Source of the DNA: Silvimonas amylolytica
Lineage (GTDB): Bacteria > Pseudomonadota > Gammaproteobacteria > Burkholderiales > Chitinibacteraceae
DNA: 64,000 nucleotides
Direction: 5' to 3'
Assembly: GCF_014645555.1 (NCBI RefSeq)
Contig: NZ_BMLY01000006.1
Span: 186,001 to 250,000 of the forward strand
Within the stretch, counting starts at the first letter, position 1; every line of letters begins with the position of its first letter. Below, one piece after another: positions 17,602-52,594 of the stretch. The notes under the pieces are model-generated. The model saw only the letters and a program-made list of their open reading frames with translations, was not told the DNA's origin and ran no database searches. The position numbers and the translations under genes are program-made.

Positions 17602-17711
17602 AGAATTGGATGGTTGCGGGTGCAAATACATATCGATGATTTGTACCGGCGAAGGGCGTCGATTATGCTCCGCAACAGTCATTGGACTCTCAGAACGAAG
17701 CCCCAATAGAG

Positions 17712-20126
17712 ATGCAACCACTGCTCGCGCGGCTGCGCGTTTTTTCCCGGGAAAACCGGCTTGCATTGCGCCTGGTACTGGCCGTCATGGTTACCAGCGT
17801 ACTGGTCGCCGCGTCGCTGGCGTTTTTCCTGGCCCGTCAGGAATATCAACGCAGCCTGTCCCAAATCCGCTCTGATCTGGAAACCCTGTCGCGCAGCGTG
17901 CGTCCGCAACTGGCCGTTAACCTGTGGCTGGTGAATACCGAGGCCGTGCGTACACAACTGAATTCCTTGTTGCAAACCAAGGTGGTTGGGTATGCCGAAC
18001 TGGTCGAAACAGACGGTTCGCGCTATCAAGCAGGTGAGTTGCCTTCTGACCAGCGTTCCGTAGTCAGCATGACCTTTCCGGTGGAGTACCTGCATCCACT
18101 GACGAACAAATCAGTACGCCTGGGGCAGTTGACCCTCGTCAATACGCTCGACGGCCTCGAGGCCGAAATCACCGACCAACTCAAACGCATCCTGTTCTTG
18201 CTGGTTACTGGCATGGGTGCGGCGGCACTGGCGTTTATCTGGCTGTATCACCGTCTTATTGCCAGACATCTGCGTTATATCGCTGATTATACGCGGCATT
18301 TTAACTATGAGCGGCTATCCGCGCCGCTGGTGCTGGCCCGCCCACCCGGTACTGCGGATGAGCTGCAGACACTGACTGATGCATTCAACGCCATGCGGCG
18401 CAATCTGTTGCAAGGGCTGAACGAGCGTGATTCTGCCCAGCACGAATTGCTGCGCGAAAAAGAACTGGCTGAAGCCACACTCAGTTCTGTTGCCGACGCG
18501 ATCGTGACAACCACGGCAGACGGCAAGGTCAAGTTATTGAATCCGGCGGCCGAAACACTCACGGGTTGGCCTTTTGCCGAAGCATCAGGGCGTCCGATTA
18601 CCGATATCGTGATGACGGTGGATGAAGCCAGCGGTACGCGTTTATCCCGCTTGTTGGCAGAAGCCCTGGAAGGCGGTCACACCGCCACCCGCGAAGTGGC
18701 AACCCTGGTCAACCGGCTGGGCCAGCGTTATCGCGTGGAAATGGCGATTGCCGCTGTGCCGGATGAACACGGTATCGGATTGGTGGTGGCGCTGCACGAC
18801 ATCAGCGAAGCTGAAGCGTTGACGGAGCGTCTTGCCTATCAAGCAACGCACGACGAACTGACCGGGCTGACCAACCGCCGTGGCTTTATGGGCGCGCTGG
18901 TACAAGCCAGTGAAATTGTTCGTGAAAGTGGCAAACCCTGTGTACTGATGCAGCTGGATCTGGATCAGTTCAAGCTGGTCAACGATACCTGCGGTCACCT
19001 GGCTGGCGATGAACTGTTGCGCCAACTGGCGCGGCAGTTGCTTGAGATCGTTCCGGTTGGCGTGCAAGTAGGGCGGTTGGGAGGTGACGAGTTTGGTTTC
19101 TTGATGCATGACGCGTCGACCGAACAAGCCCAGCAATTGGCCGATCGTATTTTGCAAGCGCTGGAGCAGTACCGGTTTGTCTGGCAAGACCGCCCGTTTA
19201 CCGTCACCGGCAGTATGGGGCTGGTGCTGATGGATACCGAGGCGCGCAATTTGCAGGAAGTCATCAGCCGGGCTGATGTGGCCTGTTTTGCTGCCAAAGA
19301 GGCCGGACGTAACCGTTTGTCCTGGTATCGTGGTGGTGAGGTTAATCTTGAGCAGCGCCATAACGAGTTGCAACTGCTGGCTACGCTGCGTCAGGCTGCC
19401 GAGTTGAACTGGTTTCAGCTGTATTTTCAGCCGATCGTCTCGTCGATCGATGCCGATGAACTGCATTATGAAGTGTTATTGCGTCTGGTCGGTGAGAACG
19501 GCAAGGTGATCTCTCCAGGGGCGTTTATCCCTGCGGCCGAGCGCTATGATTTGATGGCCACCATCGATCGTTGGGTTGTATCGCACGCAATTGGATACCT
19601 GGCTGCGAAGGAGCGGCAGGGCCGTCCTGTACCCATGCTATCGGTCAACTTGTCCGGCAAATCGCTCAACCGTCAGACGCTGGCTTTTGTGCTGGAGCGG
19701 CTGGATGAGTCAGGTGTGCCACCAGAAAACCTCTGTTTTGAGATCACTGAAACCAGCGCTATTGCCAATATCAAGGAATCCACGCTGTTTATTGAGGCGC
19801 TGCGTACGCGCGGCTGTCGCTTTGCGCTGGATGACTTTGGTAGCGGGTTTTCATCATTCACTTATCTGAAAACGTTGCCGGTACATTACCTCAAGATCGA
19901 TGGCAGTCTGGTTCGCGATATTGTTGATGATCACGTCAGTCTGCAAATGGTGATCGCAGTGAACCATATTGCGCATGCCATGGGTCGTCAGACCATTGCG
20001 GAATATGTCGAGTCCGCCGAGATCGCCGATAAGCTGCGCGAAATTGGCGTCGATTATTTGCAGGGATACCACATTGGTATTCCGTCGCCGAATATGGTGC
20101 TGGAGCCCGCCAGGTATAGCGCCTGA
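17712..20126 (+). CDS. Membrane GGDEF/EAL protein with periplasmic sensor and PAS domain
   Basis: A c-di-GMP enzyme of about 804 residues. The order is a membrane helix (about 15-40), a periplasmic sensor region (about 40-160), a second helix (about 160-185), a HAMP-like linker, PAS (about 245-370), GGDEF (about 380-540) and EAL (about 555-800). The cyclase loop is a full GGDEF (457-461) but the RxxD inhibitory site is absent. The phosphodiesterase motif reads EVL (587-589) instead of EAL, with the key Glu kept, and DDFGSGFSS is intact. Net activity is therefore uncertain. The start is ambiguous: ATG 17712 is preferred, and TTG 17682 is possible. A terminator follows. Confidence 0.9.
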   Translation: MQPLLARLRVFSRENRLALRLVLAVMVTSVLVAASLAFFLARQEYQRSLSQIRSDLETLSRSVRPQLAVNLWLVNTEAVRTQLNSLLQTKVVGYAELVETDGSRYQAGELPSDQRSVVSMTFPVEYLHPLTNKSVRLGQLTLVNTLDGLEAEITDQLKRILFLLVTGMGAAALAFIWLYHRLIARHLRYIADYTRHFNYERLSAPLVLARPPGTADELQTLTDAFNAMRRNLLQGLNERDSAQHELLREKELAEATLSSVADAIVTTTADGKVKLLNPAAETLTGWPFAEASGRPITDIVMTVDEASGTRLSRLLAEALEGGHTATREVATLVNRLGQRYRVEMAIAAVPDEHGIGLVVALHDISEAEALTERLAYQATHDELTGLTNRRGFMGALVQASEIVRESGKPCVLMQLDLDQFKLVNDTCGHLAGDELLRQLARQLLEIVPVGVQVGRLGGDEFGFLMHDASTEQAQQLADRILQALEQYRFVWQDRPFTVTGSMGLVLMDTEARNLQEVISRADVACFAAKEAGRNRLSWYRGGEVNLEQRHNELQLLATLRQAAELNWFQLYFQPIVSSIDADELHYEVLLRLVGENGKVISPGAFIPAAERYDLMATIDRWVVSHAIGYLAAKERQGRPVPMLSVNLSGKSLNRQTLAFVLERLDESGVPPENLCFEITETSAIANIKESTLFIEALRTRGCRFALDDFGSGFSSFTYLKTLPVHYLKIDGSLVRDIVDDHVSLQMVIAVNHIAHAMGRQTIAEYVESAEIADKLREIGVDYLQGYHIGIPSPNMVLEPARYSA

Positions 20127-20316: not shown

Positions 20317-22644
20317 ATGACAATGCGTATGCGTTTGCTGCTGCCGGTATTGGCGGTGGCGTTGCTTGGGTTTGGCGTGACATTGGGCTATGTCCTGTTT
20401 GGGCAGAATCTGACGCTGGACGCCGTCACTTATATATTGGCGCTGGCCAGTCTGATCGCGCTGGCTGCTGCCGCCTGGATGGCGGCGGGTTTCGCCTTGC
20501 GCCCGCTGGACGCATTGCAGCGCGGTTTGCACGATATGGGTGGTAGCGCCGGTTTGTCGGTGCGTTTTGCAGAAGAGGGCGAACTGGCGACATTGGGTCG
20601 TCCGCTCAATCAGTTTGTCAGTACACAACAGTCAGTTTTGCGTGAAATCCAGCGGGAGATGGAAGCACTGGCCCTCAGCCTGCATGAATTGACCGCAGTC
20701 ACGACGCAAATTTCCAACGATACCCGCATGCAGTCTGATCACGCTTCGGCTTCTGCAGCCACGGTCGGGCAGATTACGCAGAGCATTTCCAGCATCGCGT
20801 CTCGTGCCCGTGATGTGGATGTCGCGGTGCTGGATACGCAGTCCATTTCCAGTGAAAGCGCGCAAGCCGTTATGGGTGTTTCATCCGAGGTGGGTGAGGT
20901 GGCGACGGCGATGCAGTCGCTCGGGACGGCGATGGATAATCTTTCGCAGCGTGCACGTGAAATCAGCGGCATTGTGGTTGTCATCAAGGAAATTGCGGAT
21001 CAGACCAATTTGCTGGCTCTGAACGCAGCTATTGAAGCAGCACGTGCTGGCGAGCAAGGTCGTGGTTTTGCCGTGGTGGCAGATGAAGTTCGCAAACTGG
21101 CTGAGCGCAGCTCTTCGGCGACGGTCGATATTGCCCGCCGTATCGAACTCGTTAACGCTGAGACCAATGCGGTTCTGGCGGACATGACCCGCACTTCTAC
21201 CGGCGTATCGCAGAGCGTTGACAAGGCGGAGCACGCTCGCAAACACATGCTCACAATTTCCGGCCGGATGGACGAAGTCGCGCAAGTAGTTCGCCAGATT
21301 GCCGATGCGACCGCTGAGCAATCGTCCGCGACCGAGTCGATGGCGCGTTCGACTGAACGCGTCAGCGGTATGACGCGCGCGACCGACTCGGCATTGCATC
21401 AGGCCCGTCAGACATTGCAAAGTGTGGATGAACGCGCCAAGACCCTGCTGGGGGCTGTCGGCAAGTTTCACCTGGCAGATGTGGAAGTGCTGCACTGGTG
21501 GCTGTCACGCAGTGAAGCGCGTGCCGTGTTTGAGTTGAAAACCCGTTTGAACGCGCAGGGCCACCACTGGATGGACACCCGGACTAGCGGGGGTGACCCG
21601 ATGGCGACGCTCAATTCGCGCGTGCAATCTGGCAATGCGCCGACTGCAGCGGCCAATCGCATTATCAATATTGGCAAGTGGTCCAGAATGGGTGTGCTGG
21701 CTGATCTGAACGAGATCGCCCAGCGCCAGCGCTGGTCCAGCGTGCTGCCTGCGGTGCTGGATAAAATGATCCAGGTAGACGGCAAATACGTGGCCGTGCC
21801 CCTGGGCGCCGCGCGTGTGAATACCTTGTGGGTGAATTTGCCGCTGATCCGGAAAGTGGGCGGACAGCAGCCGCGCACCTGGGATGATTTCTTTGCATTG
21901 TGCGAAACACTGAAAGAGGCCGGCATCACCCCGCTTGCAGTGGGTGAGCAGGATTGGCAGATCGCTACCATGCTCGAAACGGTGATTCTGGCCGAAGGCG
22001 CAGAGTTCCATCGCAACTGTTTTGTGAAGCTTGATGCGAGTGCACTGGGTGGCGCTGGCATGGTGCGCGCCCTGGAGCGTTTCCGTCGCCTCAAGCCATA
22101 CTGCACTGAAGATGCAGCGGGTCGTGACTGGAATCTGGCAACCGTTGATGTGATTAACGGCCGTGCCGCTATGCAAATCATGGGGGATTGGGCCAAGCCG
22201 GAATTCATGCAGGCTGGGCAGGCGCAGGGCAAGGATTACATGGGCTGGGCCGCACCGGCTGCCGCGGGTGAATTCAGCTTTGCGTGTGACTCGCTCATCA
22301 TGTTCAAGCAAAAAGAAGGCGCCATGCACGACGCTCAGCGTGATCTGGTCGAAATGTTGATGAGCCAGGAAGGGCAGGAGGCGTTCAATTTCTTCAAGGG
22401 TAACGTGCCGGCACGTTCCGATACGCCGATGAGCCGCTACGATGGGTATTCGCAAGAAACGGCACGGTCATTTGCCCAGGCGGCCAATGCCAATGTGCTC
22501 GTGCCGTCCTGGGCGCATAGCCAGTGTTTGCCCGAAGAAGCCCGGGCATCAATCTTCGACACAACCCTGAAGTTCTGGCGCAACGGCAACATGAGTGCCA
22601 GCGACGCCGCCAGAATGATGGCGGATGCCGCACGACGCAGTTGA
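20317..22644 (+). CDS. Chemoreceptor signalling domain fused to a C-terminal sugar-binding-protein domain
   Basis: A single uninterrupted 775-residue frame. Two N-terminal helices (about 7-28 and 36-59) are joined by a loop of only about eight residues, so there is no periplasmic sensor. Next come a HAMP-like linker (about 60-110) and a methyl-accepting signalling coiled coil (about 110-385) whose hairpin tip, around residues 225-262, contains the hallmark [18 protein letters not shown]. From residue 389 ([13 protein letters not shown]) to the end it resembles glucose/mannose-type ABC solute-binding proteins, with [44 protein letters not shown] and [11 protein letters not shown]. No signal peptide precedes that part, so positive-inside topology places it in the cytoplasm. 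Chemoreceptors normally sense at the N-terminus. It is flanked by terminators, so it is monocistronic. Confidence 0.9.
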
Positions 22645-45752: not shown

Positions 45753-48700
45753 TCAGCTGCGCAGTTGTGCCAGCAATGCCTCGCACTGCGCCCGCGCCCG
45801 TTGAAAGTCCAGCTGGTTAATGGCATCGCTGATTTTTGCGCCCTGATCAGGATAGGCTGCGTTCAAGCCGGCTTTGAGCTGATCAAACACACGCATCGCC
45901 TCCATATTGGCAGACGCCAGCAATTGCGACAGGGTTTCAAGATCGCTGGCCAGAGCTGAGTCCGGGGCGGCACCAGCGTTTGAATTCTCGCCATTGGCTT
46001 CCTGCAGGATCGCCTGCAAGGCTTTGACGTTGCCGCAGGTTTCTTCCAGCGCCGCATTGATCTGCGCCAGCTTTTCTCCCAGCATTTTGTCATCCAGCCC
46101 CTCACGCACGTCACCTTCCACCTGACGAACCTGCAAGGCCAGATCCGTTGCGCCGACCGTCCCGGCCGTGCCCTTCAAGGTGTGCAGAAGACGTGCCAAT
46201 GCATCCTGTGGGCTTCCCGGCCACCACTGCGCCAGTTGTTCACTCATTTGTACGCTGGTGCTCAAAAAGCTCCCCAGCGCCCATTCAAACAAGGGCAGAT
46301 CGCCACCCAGTCGCGCCAGCGCCGCGGCGATATCCAGTCCACGCTCTCCGGCCAGTTTGAGGGCCGCAGGTGGAATCACACCGCCCGTGCGGACTTGGGC
46401 CGGTGGCGGCTGGAGCGCGGGCTCAGCGCTTGTGTGCCGTGTGAACTGGCGAATCACTGCAACCAGCTGGTTCAGATCAAACGGTTTGCCGACATGATCA
46501 TTCATGCCCGCATCCAGGCATGCCTGGCGGTCACTGGCCATGGCATTGGCGGTCATCGCGATAATGGGCAATTCGCGCAGACCCAGCTTGTGGCGAATTT
46601 CACGCGTCGCGGTATAGCCATCCATGTCTGGCATCTGGATGTCCATCAGCACGGCATCGTATTGTGGCTGCGCGTTTTGTATTGCGGTCACACCCTCAAT
46701 GCCACCACCTGCGACATCCACCTGCGCGCCTTCGTTCTTCAGCAACTCTCTCGCTACTTGCTGGTTGGTCGGGTTGTCTTCTACCAACAACAGACGTAAA
46801 CCGGTCAAGCGTGGGCCCGCGCCGGACTTGCGCGTCGGGATATTGGCCGGGTTCTGGTTGGCCCGCGCGTCAGCCACGGCATCAAACAGGGTGGAGATGG
46901 TAATGGGCTTGACCAGAAAACCATCCAGCAGCGCTTGTTCGCTGGCCAGTCGTTGCGCCAGCATCTCACGGCCGTGGGCGGTGACCATGACGATCAGCGG
47001 GCTGGTGCCCGGTGGTGCGATGGCGCGGATGCGCTCTGCGGTTTGCCAGCCATCCATTTCCGGCATGGCCCAATCCACAAAGATCACATCGTAACTGCGG
47101 CCACGCTCAATACTTTGCTTGAGCAGGTCGAGTGCTTCGAGGCCGGATGCAGCCAGATCCGCACGCCAACCCAGTGAGTCGACCATGCGCGAGATCACCT
47201 CACGCGCACTGGCATTGTCATCAATCACAAGGGCACGTACCCCGCGCAGGTTGGCCAGTGCGGGCAGGCTGTCTTCCAGCGAGACTTCCTCTCCAGTCGC
47301 CTTCAGCGTGATTTCGAAATGGAAATCGCTGCCTTTGCCCGCGGTGCTCTCCACGGCCAGTTGTCCGCCCATCAAACGGACCAGACGCTGGCTAATCGCC
47401 AAGCCCAGTCCGGTGCCACCAAAACGACGGGTTGTTGAGACTTCTGCCTGAGAGAAACCCTCAAAAATGTGAGTGAGTTGGTCCGGGGTCATGCCAATAC
47501 CCGTGTCACGCACAGAGAAATCAAGCGTGAGCAGATCATCACGCCGGCGTTTGAGGCGCGCTGACAGGACAACTTCGCCGTGCTCTGTGAACTTGATGGC
47601 ATTGCCGGAGAGGTTGATCAACACTTGTTGCAGTCGCAAGGCATCGCCAATGACCAGTTCCGGGATGGCAGGATCGATATCAAACAGGATCTCGATGTTT
47701 TTCTTGCCCACGCTCGCGGACAAAATGACCCCGATATCCTTCAGCAACTTGTCCAGCATGAATGGATGCGGGTCCAGTTCCAGCTTGCCTGCTTCTACCT
47801 TGGAAAAATCGAGAATATCGTTCAGCAAACCCAACAATGCCTTGGCCGAGGATTCGGCTTTCTCGGTGTAATCATGCTGGCGGCTGGTCAGTTCAGTCTG
47901 TTGCAGCAGTTGCAGCATGCCCAGGATGGCATTCATCGGCGTGCGGATTTCATGGCTCATGTTGGCAAGGAAGTCCGACTTGGCACGTGTGGCTGACTCG
48001 GCACTCTCTTTGGCCTGGCGCAGCACGGCTTCATCACGTTTGTGCAGGGTCAGATCCATCGCAATACCGAGGAAACCAAACACCTGGCCATCAGAGTCAC
48101 GCAAACTACTCACCGTCAGCAGCACCGGGACACGGCTGCCATCTTTACGAACGTAGTTCCACTCGTTGGCGTCTGGCTTGCCCAGGCGGGATTTAGCCGC
48201 GAAGGCCTCAAAGCCCGGCTCGACCAGATAACCCAGTTCATCGGTCAGTTCCCGTGCGCGGCGTTCAACCTCAAGCGTATCGTGCAGGACGCCTGGCGTT
48301 TGCAAGTCAATCATTTCATCGGCCCGGTAACCCAGCAAACGCTCGGCTGCAGGGTTGAACAGCTTGATGACGCCGTCTGAGTCTGTGGCGATAATCGAAT
48401 AGCCAGCGCTTTCCAGAATGGCGGCCTGCAAGGCAGAAAATGCCTGGATTTGCGCGGTACGGTCCTGGACTTGTTGTTCCAGCGTGGCATTGAGTTTGAG
48501 GATTTGCGCCTCAGCCTCTTTTTGTTGACTGATATCGCGCACGATTTTGGCGGCACCGTCAATTTGCCCGTTCGCACCGCGAATGGGGGATACGGTGACC
48601 GACACGGCGACGGTACTGCCATCTTTGCGTTTGCGCACGGTTTCAAAGTGGGGCACGATTTCGCCCTGGCCCACACGCTGCAGAATGTCGGCTTCTTCGC

Positions 48701-49892
48701 TGCTCCGGTCTTCCGGAATCACCAGTTCGCGAATGGTGTGGCCCACGGCCTCTGCGGCACTGTAACCAAACATGCGCTCGGCAGCGGGGTTCCACGTCAC
48801 GACCACGCCTTCCAGTGTCTTGCTGACAATGGCATCGTTGGATCCTTCCACAATCGCAGCCAGCCGCGCCTGGTCAACCATTGCTTTAAGGCGGCGCTCC
48901 ACGTTGATCGAATACAAGTAGATCACGCCCGCCAGCAACATGGCGCAGGCCAGCACAATCAATGCCGGCTCCAGTGGGGACAACAAATTAAGGTCATCCA
49001 CAAATTTGGGCAACGCGGCAATTTGCGCGTGCCACACCTGGCCATAGCGATGAATGTCTGCCTCGTAGACGAAGCCTGCTTCCGGCTTGTGATCGCTCAG
49101 CGGCGATGCGAAAAAGGTGGTGTTCTTGTCATCGCTGTCTAGCGAAGACAACTTGACTGTGATCTCGCCATCGCGGTAATCGAAGTGTTTCATTACTTCG
49201 CTGACCACCAAAGGCGTATACACCCAACCCAGGGTGGCATCTTCCCGATCCGCCGGATTTGCGGGCAGGGCGCCTTCCCGGTAAACCGGCATCACCAGTA
49301 AAAATCCCAGGTTGGGTTCGCCCTTGGGCAAAGTGAGCCCGATGGGCCGGGTCAGCGTGGCTTGCCCGGTGGCGATGGATTCTTGCAATGCCCTCAAGCG
49401 GCTGGGTTCGGAGGCCAGATCAAGCCCGACCACCCGGTTGGCCACCACCTGCGGCACAAAATATTCCACTACATATTTGTCGCCCTGATGAGGTTGCATC
49501 TGAAAGATATGAAAATCCGGCTGGCCGTTGGCGCGATGGTTGATAACAAAAATAGATTCCTGATCGGCTTTGACCCTGCGTACAAAACCGTAGCCTCGTG
49601 ATCCGGGGAATTCGGTATCCAGATCCAGTGAGTTGCCATATTGCGCAAAGCGGGCCTCGGCCTGGTCTTCGCCCATTGCGCCATATACCGCACCGCGCGC
49701 ACCGCGTAATCCATATTCGTAAATACGCAGTTGGGTATTGATCTGCTCCACTGCGCGTTTTGAGCGCGACAAAAACCGCTGATGTGCAGCAGCGTCATTT
49801 TCTGATTGCTGATGATGAGCGAGCAGGGCAGACAACACGAGGCCCAGCGCAATAATGATTGCGGGCATCCACCGTGGGCTATTGATTTGCAA
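45753..49892 (-). CDS. CHASE-PAS hybrid histidine kinase with two receivers and an Hpt domain
   Basis: A 1379-residue membrane sensor kinase. The order is an N-terminal helix (about 10-26), a periplasmic CHASE domain (about 55-270), a second helix (about 308-328), PAS (about 340-460), a coiled coil, a second PAS (about 490-625), the HisKA dimerisation helix with phospho-His647 ([12 protein letters not shown]), an ATPase domain (about 755-880), receiver one with Asp940, receiver two with Asp1084, and a C-terminal Hpt domain with His1237 ([10 protein letters not shown]). All relay residues are present. The CHASE domain suggests a small extracellular signal. The gene is divergent from a REC-GGDEF-EAL regulator that is a probable output. 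Confidence 0.95.
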
Positions 49893-50110: not shown

Positions 50111-52594
50111 GTGTTTGCTGTCGAAGAACAGTGGCCCCGACCAACCATCCTGATCGTTGACGACGCAATCGAGAATATCAAGCTGATAAGTCATGCACTG
50201 TATGGCATGGCTGATCTGCTGTTCGCTACCAATGGCCCGGACGCATTGCGTATCGCCGATTCCAGTCGCCCTGACCTGGTTCTTCTTGATATCGAAATGC
50301 CGGGAATGGATGGGTATGAAGTTTGTAATGCGTTGAAGGCCAACCCATACACCAGCGAGTGCGCGGTGATTTTCATCACGGCGCATGAGGGCACGTCTTA
50401 CGAAACGCAATCGCTCGCCGCGGGTGGTATCGACTTTCTGACCAAGCCGATTAATGTCCCCATTTGCCGGCTGCGCGTCCAGAATCAACTCACCCTCAAG
50501 CGCCAGAAAGACGAATTGGCGCAAACCCGCCGCGATCTGGCTGATCTTGTCCACCATTTGCCTTCCTTTGTGGCGTTCTGGGGCGCGGATACCGTTAATC
50601 GTTATTGCAATGATCAGCTGGGACACTGGTTCGGGATTTCCGCTGCCCGCATGCTGGGCATGTCGCTGGATGGCGTGCTCAATGAAGAGACCATGACGCA
50701 GCTGCGGCCGCATTGGACCGGCGCGATGGAGGGTCGCACGATCTCGGTGGAAATGACCTTGTTTCCATCGTCAGCCCGGCGCCGCATTGCGCAAACCACG
50801 CTGGTGCCCAACTGGCAAATGGGGGTGGTGGCTGGCGTGTTGATGGTGCTGACAGACATCACTGACCGGATTACAGCCGAGCGCGCGTTGTGGGAAGAAA
50901 AGGAGCGCATGCGCATTACCCTCAACTCCATTGGTGATGCGGTGATCGCCACTGACCAGCAAGGGTTGGTGACCTTCATGAACCCGATTGCCGAGGAAAT
51001 GACGGGTTGGCATTCGTCCGACGCGATCAGCAAGCCGATCGACAACGTGATGGAGCTGCGTGACGCCAACAACGGCCACGTGCTGCGCAATCCAATCTAT
51101 CTGGCGCTCAAAGAAGAGCGCATTGTCGGCATGGCGCTCAATTGCAACCTTGTGGCGCTCAGTGGCCAGCAATCGGCCGTGGAGGACTCCGCCGCGCCGA
51201 TCCGCAACCAGTCCGGTGAGATCTCTGGCGCCATCATTGTGTTTCGGGATGCCAGCGAAGCGCGGGCCATGGCTATCAAAATGAGCTATCTGGCCAGTCA
51301 CGATCCACTGACTGGTTTGCCTAACCGGCTGCTATTGCAAGACCGGATTTCTCACGGCTTGCAGGTAGCACGCTGGAGTCAGACTCACGTTGCCATGCTG
51401 TTGCTGGATCTGGACTACTTCAAGTTCGTTAACGACTCGATTGGCTATACCGCTGGCGACGATCTGTTGCGGCAGGTGGCGCACAGGCTTGAAAACGAAC
51501 TCTCCGCTACCGGCACCATCGGCCGGCTTGGTGGGGACGAATTTGTGGTTTTGTTGCCTGAATTACGCTCTATTACCGAGGCCGATGAGGTCGCCACCAA
51601 GCTGTTGGCTGCCATGAGCGAGCCATTTGAGCTGGATGGCAACCGGTTTGATCTGTCAATCAGCGTGGGGATCAGCCTGTTTCCGGATGACAGCTCTGAT
51701 GAAGAAACGCTGATGCGTCATGCAGACGTGGCCATGCACCGTGCCAAGCAGGACGGGCGCAATCGCTACCGTTTTTTCTCCACCGAACTGGAAGACCTGG
51801 TGCTCAGCCGGCATTTGCTGGAGCGCCACTTGCGCGAAGCGTTACAGGAGAACCGGTTTGAAGTGTTCTACCAGAGCAAGGTCAATGCGCGTGAAGGGCG
51901 GGTCATCGGCGCTGAGGCTCTGGTGCGGATGTACAGCACCGAGGGCGAGTTGCTTTCACCGGGGCGGTTTATACCGCTGGCGGAAGAAACCGGCTTGATC
52001 GTGCCGCTAGGCAAAATGGTGCTGGAAATTGCCTGTAGACAGGCTGCGGCCTGGCATGAGCAAGGGCACGCGCTGAAAATGTCGGTCAACATTGCGGCCG
52101 CCCAGTTTGCTGCCGGTAATTTTCCGGAGGTGGTGGCTGAGGTGCTGGATCACACGGGCCTGAACCCGGACATGCTGGAGCTTGAAATCACCGAGGGTAC
52201 GCTGATGAGCGAGGCTGACGTCGCCCGTGAGACCTTGATTGAATTGAAGGCGCTCGGTGTCCATGTATCGCTCGATGATTTCGGCACGGGGTATTCCAGC
52301 CTGGCTTATCTGAAGCGCTTTCCGCTGGATACGCTCAAGATTGATCAATCCTTCGTGCGCGATATGCTCAACGACAAGAGCGATATGGCGATTATCCAGA
52401 CCATCATTGCGCTAGGGCAGACCCTGGGTATGGAACTGGTTGCGGAGGGGGTTGAACTGCGTGAACAGGCCGAGATTCTGGCCAGTATGGGTTGCCACAT
52501 CATGCAGGGCTATCTGTACGACAAGCCCAAGCCCGCCACGGAGTGGAGTTTCATTGAACCGACGGGTGTAGCGCGATCTATTTCTGGCAATTAG
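50111..52594 (+). CDS. Response regulator with PAS, GGDEF and EAL domains
   Basis: An 827-residue cytoplasmic regulator turning a phosphorylation signal into a change in c-di-GMP. It has an N-terminal receiver (about 10-130) with phospho-Asp60 (VLLDIEMPGMDGYE), two PAS units (about 145-260 and 265-385), GGDEF (474-478, intact) and EAL (602-604, intact, with DDFGTGYSS at 722 onward). The cyclase lacks the RxxD inhibitory site. Both activities look possible. The start is a GTG after GGAGAGA. It is 218 bases from, and divergent to, the hybrid kinase gene, which is a likely partner by position. Confidence 0.94.
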   Translation: MFAVEEQWPRPTILIVDDAIENIKLISHALYGMADLLFATNGPDALRIADSSRPDLVLLDIEMPGMDGYEVCNALKANPYTSECAVIFITAHEGTSYETQSLAAGGIDFLTKPINVPICRLRVQNQLTLKRQKDELAQTRRDLADLVHHLPSFVAFWGADTVNRYCNDQLGHWFGISAARMLGMSLDGVLNEETMTQLRPHWTGAMEGRTISVEMTLFPSSARRRIAQTTLVPNWQMGVVAGVLMVLTDITDRITAERALWEEKERMRITLNSIGDAVIATDQQGLVTFMNPIAEEMTGWHSSDAISKPIDNVMELRDANNGHVLRNPIYLALKEERIVGMALNCNLVALSGQQSAVEDSAAPIRNQSGEISGAIIVFRDASEARAMAIKMSYLASHDPLTGLPNRLLLQDRISHGLQVARWSQTHVAMLLLDLDYFKFVNDSIGYTAGDDLLRQVAHRLENELSATGTIGRLGGDEFVVLLPELRSITEADEVATKLLAAMSEPFELDGNRFDLSISVGISLFPDDSSDEETLMRHADVAMHRAKQDGRNRYRFFSTELEDLVLSRHLLERHLREALQENRFEVFYQSKVNAREGRVIGAEALVRMYSTEGELLSPGRFIPLAEETGLIVPLGKMVLEIACRQAAAWHEQGHALKMSVNIAAAQFAAGNFPEVVAEVLDHTGLNPDMLELEITEGTLMSEADVARETLIELKALGVHVSLDDFGTGYSSLAYLKRFPLDTLKIDQSFVRDMLNDKSDMAIIQTIIALGQTLGMELVAEGVELREQAEILASMGCHIMQGYLYDKPKPATEWSFIEPTGVARSISGN

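Follow-up and report, generated by a model that had tools for sequence, protein, structure and literature searches.

Some chemoreceptors sense their ligands through a partner protein: a periplasmic solute-binding protein (SBP) docks on the receptor, as the maltose-binding protein does on Tar. In a poorly characterised subfamily of chemoreceptors the ligand-binding domain is C-terminal, and the accessible part of the survey that describes it counts in Pfam at least 17 types of such domains, of which CZB is by far the commonest (PMC7390727). Many domains that match SBP profiles act as sensor domains of cytosolic or membrane receptors, according to the accessible part of PMC9602780, and a survey of archaea mentions, in the part accessible, chemoreceptors with C-terminal ligand-binding domains and, as a separate matter, chemoreceptors with SBP_bac domains (PMC9680633). 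In titles and abstract openings we found no described methyl-accepting chemotaxis protein (MCP) with a C-terminal SBP of the kind reported below, the literature covered being thin on subscription journals and the published list of 17 types lying outside the comparison; the accessible text of PMC2536512 names the two domains apart, not as a fusion. The closest solved SBP, the glucose-binding protein of strain CSV86, has, according to a review, been dissected by mutation: replacement of W35, W36, E41, K92, K339 or H379 by Ala lowers glucose binding (PMC12918735, accessible part).

We analyzed a 64,000-nucleotide stretch of Silvimonas amylolytica DNA (hereafter the window), in which one gene joins a chemoreceptor to a full-size SBP. 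The gene (20317..22644, + strand, as are all the parts listed here) is a single uninterrupted ATG-to-stop frame encoding 775 amino acids. Hydropathy places a first membrane helix at residues 11-29 (20347..20403), a 10-residue periplasmic loop lacking Lys and Arg at residues 30-39 (20404..20433), and a second membrane helix at residues 40-58 (20434..20490). These are followed by a HAMP-like linker (residues ~59-105; 20491..20631), for which a Pfam HAMP match was absent from the window copy and above threshold in three of the five other fused proteins tested. The methyl-accepting antiparallel coiled coil (residues ~106-386; 20632..21474) was delimited from the MCPsignal match (PF00015, residues 197-352, E = 7e-45) and from the spacing around its tip motif, which starts at residue 248, with low-confidence model helices alongside. 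Solved chemoreceptors match this half of the protein, and the GRGFAVVA hairpin tip is found in all 47 fused ORFs described below. The remainder, residues 387-775 (21475..22641), is the SBP domain, matched by SBP_bac_8 (PF13416, residues 426-702, E = 5e-17) and SBP_bac_1 (PF01547, residues 424-639, E = 2e-15). The Pseudomonas glucose-binding protein 5dvf aligns with the last 388 residues over almost its whole length (E = 7e-88), and the Thermus glucose-binding protein 2b3b gives a weaker match (E = 8e-37). Between the two halves of the window protein, sequence inspection and hydropathy revealed neither a signal-peptide-like stretch nor a membrane segment. The single frame, its limits, the order of its domains, the two short-looped membrane helices, the SBP nature of the C-terminal part and its lack of a signal peptide had all been put forward in the preliminary description, and all of them agree with these results.

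The SBP fold was assigned from the sequence matches together with an AlphaFold2 model, built from an input of 32 sequences (three fused proteins and 29 stand-alone SBPs). The model shows helices at residues 2-28 and 36-73, a long antiparallel pair at 89-247 and 251-384, and the SBP from residue 388. Within the SBP, block pLDDT is mostly 90-98 from residue 401 onwards, with a lowest block of 70, and the whole protein has a mean pLDDT of 76.9 and a pTM of 0.57. Confidence is low in the MCP half of the model, with most blocks at 47-70, and that half did not serve as evidence.

The window gene is one of many of its kind. A second full-length fused copy, 51% identical to the window protein, is present in the same genome, and 35 of the 43 Chitinibacteraceae genomes searched (its own included) have at least one copy, 51 being counted overall among listed matches that extend well below the weakest fused one. 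Thirty-one of these resemble the window gene more closely (54-100% identity) and the other 20 the paralogue (47-51%), both types occurring together in 16 genomes; named carriers, both Chitinibacteraceae, are Andreprevotia chitinilytica and Chitinilyticum piscinae. We extracted and analyzed 45 of the 51 copies (all 31 window-like and 14 of the 20 paralogue-like), which as ORFs number 47, since L054 and L055 repeat L013 and L030. Wider sampling detected fused copies in 13 of 399 genomes of the order, all 13 Chitinibacteraceae, and in one of 369 genomes of the class and one of 398 of the phylum, in both cases the window's own genome. No fusion was found outside Chitinibacteraceae in these three samples, which overlap and were searched with cut-offs of 1e-115, 1e-110 and 1e-110, respectively, the searches reaching relatives of the window protein and not unrelated MCP-SBP fusions. 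A similar fused relative should have passed these cut-offs, since among the family matches the E value is 2.6e-214 for the weakest fused copy, compared with 3e-124, 1e-114 and 6e-111 for the top lone SBPs. On the spread of this architecture, about which the preliminary description offered no estimate, conservation within one family can be stated firmly, and absence elsewhere holds for the samples searched.

The best 80 loci of the scan that contained the two named carriers were examined; in the other 78, the ORF encoding the SBP has no MCP match. Two long frames at first resembled other fusions. One of them, a 1210-amino-acid frame in L038, was rejected as such and is taken as a false upstream extension, its L039 counterpart being a separate SBP of 425 amino acids with a signal-peptide-like start; the other is a 900-amino-acid frame in L065. 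Both L038 and L065 were retained in the stand-alone set.

The point at which the two halves meet could be located to the residue by comparison with unfused MCPs of the family. Of 20 such fragments, 15 contain the stop and 13 of these 15 have the exact tip motif; in every one of the 13 the chain ends at residue 139 after the motif's start, the usual ending being ...F-R/K-L and then the stop. This residue 139 is, in the window protein, the L that closes GKFHL (residue 386), a length that fits the estimate of about 140 residues made earlier for this arm. The ADVEVLHWW that follows residue 386 matches the start of a sister stand-alone SBP behind its signal-peptide-like stretch (...GSAGAADIEVLHWW), and the SBP begins at residue 140 after the tip start, where ordinary MCPs would stop. 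The distance from the tip to the H-x-W motif of the SBP is 145 in all 47 fused ORFs, unlike a distance within the SBP, which varies from 337 to 339.

Phylogenetic analysis of the SBPs (93 rows after thinning) grouped the 35 fused rows in one clade (support 99/96). Its sister consists of two stand-alone SBPs from one genus of Chitinibacteraceae, joined at 100/100 and with long branches, and the next relatives are again Chitinibacteraceae SBPs (95/79; 98/87 in a smaller tree). In the MCP tree, which has 20 other family MCPs for comparison, the 33 fused rows likewise form a single clade (100/99). Both trees gave long-branch warnings, among others for the sister pair in the SBP tree and for some of the other MCPs in the MCP tree. 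Since the SBP halves and the MCP halves each form one clade, a single fusion inside Chitinibacteraceae is the simplest reading; more than one fusion was also considered and is unneeded, both halves being monophyletic. In the SBP tree the paralogue group is a clade (100/100), and the window-like group is the remainder, not a clade.

We then analyzed on which side of the membrane the SBP would lie. In the 47 fused ORFs the loop between the two helices has a median of 10 residues and a maximum of 16, and it lacks Lys and Arg in 38 of them. The mean number of Lys/Arg is 1.6 before the first helix, 0.2 in the loop and 1.5 after the second helix, a positive-inside pattern by which both ends of the membrane pair face the cytoplasm. 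A simple hydropathy cut-off returned a single helix or a merged stretch in a few of these ORFs, and no segment returning the SBP across the membrane was seen by hydropathy, a weak extra hydrophobic stretch within the SBP of L041 being the sole flag among the 47. Taking into account this charge pattern, the lack of a further membrane segment and the broken cysteine pair described next, the SBP most likely sits in the cytoplasm, the side proposed for it in the preliminary description.

In 104 of 104 stand-alone SBP sequences, PpGBP included, the aligned domain contains two cysteines and no more, one at site 288 and one at site 356; we infer that the pair forms a disulphide in these presumably exported homologues. 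Site 356 is Tyr in all 45 distinct fused proteins and Cys 288 is kept in 26 of them, and their SBP domains contain two to five cysteines, an odd number in 24/45. As the sister SBPs still carry both cysteines, the pair was lost, on the SBP tree, on the fused branch. Such a loss is as expected for a cytoplasmic location; taken alone it is no proof of one, since 2b3b, the secreted Thermus relative, has Trp/Tyr at the two sites. The four columns invariant in the 104 stand-alone sequences and lost in all fused proteins are T37, G66, A72 and C356; of the 36 such columns, 25 are also invariant in the 45 fused proteins and seven are partly so.

Two readings that would remove the cytoplasmic SBP altogether can be weighed at this point. 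Since the same genome has a paralogue and the family 51 copies, the fusion is real and not an assembly artefact, and an error of sequencing or assembly, a concern already raised in the preliminary description, or a pseudogene join of two genes is excluded for practical purposes: nothing was found in its favour, and it would have to recur across 35 of 43 genomes with the join constant in 47/47 ORFs and with low dN/dS on either side of it in ten pairs (see below). Scarcely more credible is a periplasmic SBP, whether the protein were inserted upside down or cut after translocation. This family of proteins is periplasmic by nature, which is what speaks for it, but the chain runs from the second helix through the CheA-binding tip to the SBP without a further membrane segment, the fused ORFs show the positive-inside pattern and the cysteine pair is broken in 45/45 distinct fused proteins.

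In a comparison of ten pairs of relatives, dN/dS was 0.016-0.086 in the SBP, 0.008-0.151 in the MCP part and 0.033-0.331 in the TM/HAMP part; these values are rough, because several pairs come close to saturation at synonymous sites, and the pairs are not independent, the window gene being in three. The TM/HAMP value exceeds that of the SBP in 10/10 pairs, and the SBP value exceeds that of the MCP part in 7/10. These figures indicate that the SBP is under purifying selection and that the TM/HAMP part, which bears the sensor in ordinary MCPs, is the least constrained, with the SBP constrained.

The ligand pocket was compared with that of CSV86. Of the six mutation-tested residues, W36, K339 and H379 are kept in 45/45 fused proteins, E41 is kept in 31 and changed in 14, and W35 is kept in 21 and changed in 24. 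K92 occurs in none of the 45, the site being Gly in 40 and Arg in five, Arg marking the window's genus and its nearest relative; the window copy has five of the six residues, with Arg at site 92. Among 103 stand-alone sequences, K92 is present in 93, E41 in 103, K339 in 103, W36 in 102 and H379 in 97; the residue at site 35 is Trp in 72 of them and Tyr in 30. Additional changes common to the fused proteins are N141G, H143A and N301A (45/45) and G188E (44/45). K92G, N141G and H143A are already found in the sister stand-alone SBPs, so the change of the pocket partly predates the fusion and is not simple decay.

Since this pocket differs from that of glucose-binding relatives, with K92 in no fused copy, the ligand is probably not plain glucose, and a sugar-like compound other than glucose is likely. 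Given the family's habits, and on that ground only, one might guess at a product of chitin breakdown, either a sugar or an amino sugar. Pocket residues are not the same in the two paralogue groups, which may have different ligands. With the pocket partly kept and partly changed, the label "glucose/mannose-type" given to the domain in the preliminary description should not be taken as naming the ligand. Direct sensing of an intracellular sugar, as suggested there, would be the best reading of these data.

We consider it fairly probable that the window protein is a membrane-anchored chemoreceptor whose input is the cytoplasmic SBP at the end of its signalling helix and which would sense a small sugar-like ligand. 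In such a receptor the N-terminal helices would serve as an anchor only, and each dimer would carry two SBPs next to the HAMP-like region, at the end of the signalling bundle that is closest to the membrane. The two-lobed SBP would close on a small sugar-like ligand of the cytoplasm, and in its closed form it would contact the bundle differently at the HAMP-like base, directly via the linker-free join, which in turn would change CheA kinase activity. The coupling is proposed to be direct because the spacing is fixed and a flexible linker is absent. A docking contact has to be assumed, as an SBP held at one end cannot pull on two points by closing.

Two other readings of the domain draw on the same pocket residues. 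According to one of them, the protein is a cytoplasmic glucose sensor with the specificity of the glucose-binding protein of an ABC transporter; its closest solved relatives are glucose-binding proteins, and the window copy has W35, W36, E41, K339 and H379 with Arg at site 92. We regard this as improbable, as site 92 is Gly in 40/45 fused proteins and both H143 and N301 are Ala in 45/45, these last two being alignment-derived sites that may or may not touch the sugar. Less remote, though still unlikely, is that the SBP binds no small molecule and serves, at the receptor's base, as a structural module or as a docking site for proteins, for instance another receptor, an adaptation enzyme or a metabolic enzyme. 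The absence of K92 in 45/45, the further sites changed in all or nearly all fused proteins, the loss in 45/45 of a conserved stretch at sites 64-66 and the attachment of the domain at a single point would all fit such a module. They have to be set against the 25 of 36 stand-alone invariant columns that stay invariant in the 45 fused proteins and the binding residues W36, K339 and H379 kept in every one, and the presence of K92G, N141G and H143A in stand-alone sisters points to a changed ligand and not to decay.

A fuller account that joins origin and function to this sensor of a small sugar-like ligand seems to us evenly balanced between right and wrong. It holds that a periplasmic ABC SBP became a cytoplasmic sensor by one exact-end fusion, that the export signal and the cysteine pair were lost and the pocket changed, that the protein came to steer cells by the level of an internal sugar-like metabolite via the linker-free join, and that the gene was then duplicated into two receptors with different pockets.

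The immediate neighbours of the window gene, a CHASE5-PAS-GGDEF-EAL protein and an IMP dehydrogenase, point to no pathway, and neither is a transporter gene. Both adjoin the fused gene in four of 30 window-like loci (~1.5 kb flanks), all four from the same genus. Upstream of the fused genes, a scan for sigma-28-type promoters scored no better than shuffled sequence. The genome has eight CheW-domain matches. Other signalling genes of the window include, with the CHASE5-PAS-GGDEF-EAL gene (17682-20126), a GAF-PAS-GGDEF gene (424-2754), a CHASE hybrid histidine kinase with Hpt (45753-49892) and a receiver-PAS-GGDEF-EAL gene (50111-52594).

Elsewhere, SBPs of this type are found in other company. 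The stand-alone sister SBP (L039 2629-3906, - strand; also L038) lies, by eye, directly downstream of an FtsK-like gene, and no ABC transporter gene was seen near the L039 copy in the 6.5 kb read. One and the same genome has, also by eye, a divergent SBP of the family and then a response regulator and a histidine kinase (L155 5331-6704 and 3145-4692, L005 756-1469, all on the - strand), and in a Vibrio locus (L127 3483-7218, + strand) a regulator and a kinase stand just before a same-family SBP and its transporter genes. As judged from these gene orders, the same SBP type also adjoins two-component systems. A separate arrangement occurs on a Vibrio sp. THAF190c plasmid (NZ_CP045340; L186, 496037-499277), where 10 bases separate an MCP gene from a same-family SBP gene downstream of it. 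This SBP has Gly at sites 92, 35 and 141, pocket changes like those of many fused receptors; unlike the fusion, it is encoded by a gene of its own, starts with a signal-peptide-like stretch and has the two cysteines intact. In the tree it is placed outside the fused clade, on a long branch that makes its placement unsure.

Compared with the glucose-binding protein of P. putida/bharatica CSV86 (PDB 5dvf-5dvj), the fused SBP belongs to the same family, aligns nearly end to end and keeps W36, K339 and H379, but it is joined to an MCP, has no signal peptide, has its cysteine pair broken and lacks K92. It offers a case for studying the adaptation to the cytoplasm of a protein that was exported and cysteine-paired. 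As in SBP-activated chemoreceptors, an SBP would feed the receptor; in those systems a separate periplasmic SBP acts on a periplasmic domain, whereas here the SBP is covalently attached, most likely on the opposite face of the membrane, and just 10 residues make up the periplasmic loop. Like chemoreceptors with C-terminal ligand-binding domains such as CZB, as described in the accessible part of their survey, the fused protein has its domain after the signalling coiled coil; unlike the CZB type, the domain is a full two-lobed ABC sugar SBP of ~389 residues, the 17 types being compared here by their count and not by their list. The invariant, linker-free join makes these proteins a clean case for asking how a signal from the far end of the signalling helix gets to the kinase. 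In the usual picture chemoreceptors sense from the outside in, whereas these roughly fifty natural copies seem to be fed from the inside by a full-size, two-lobed domain.
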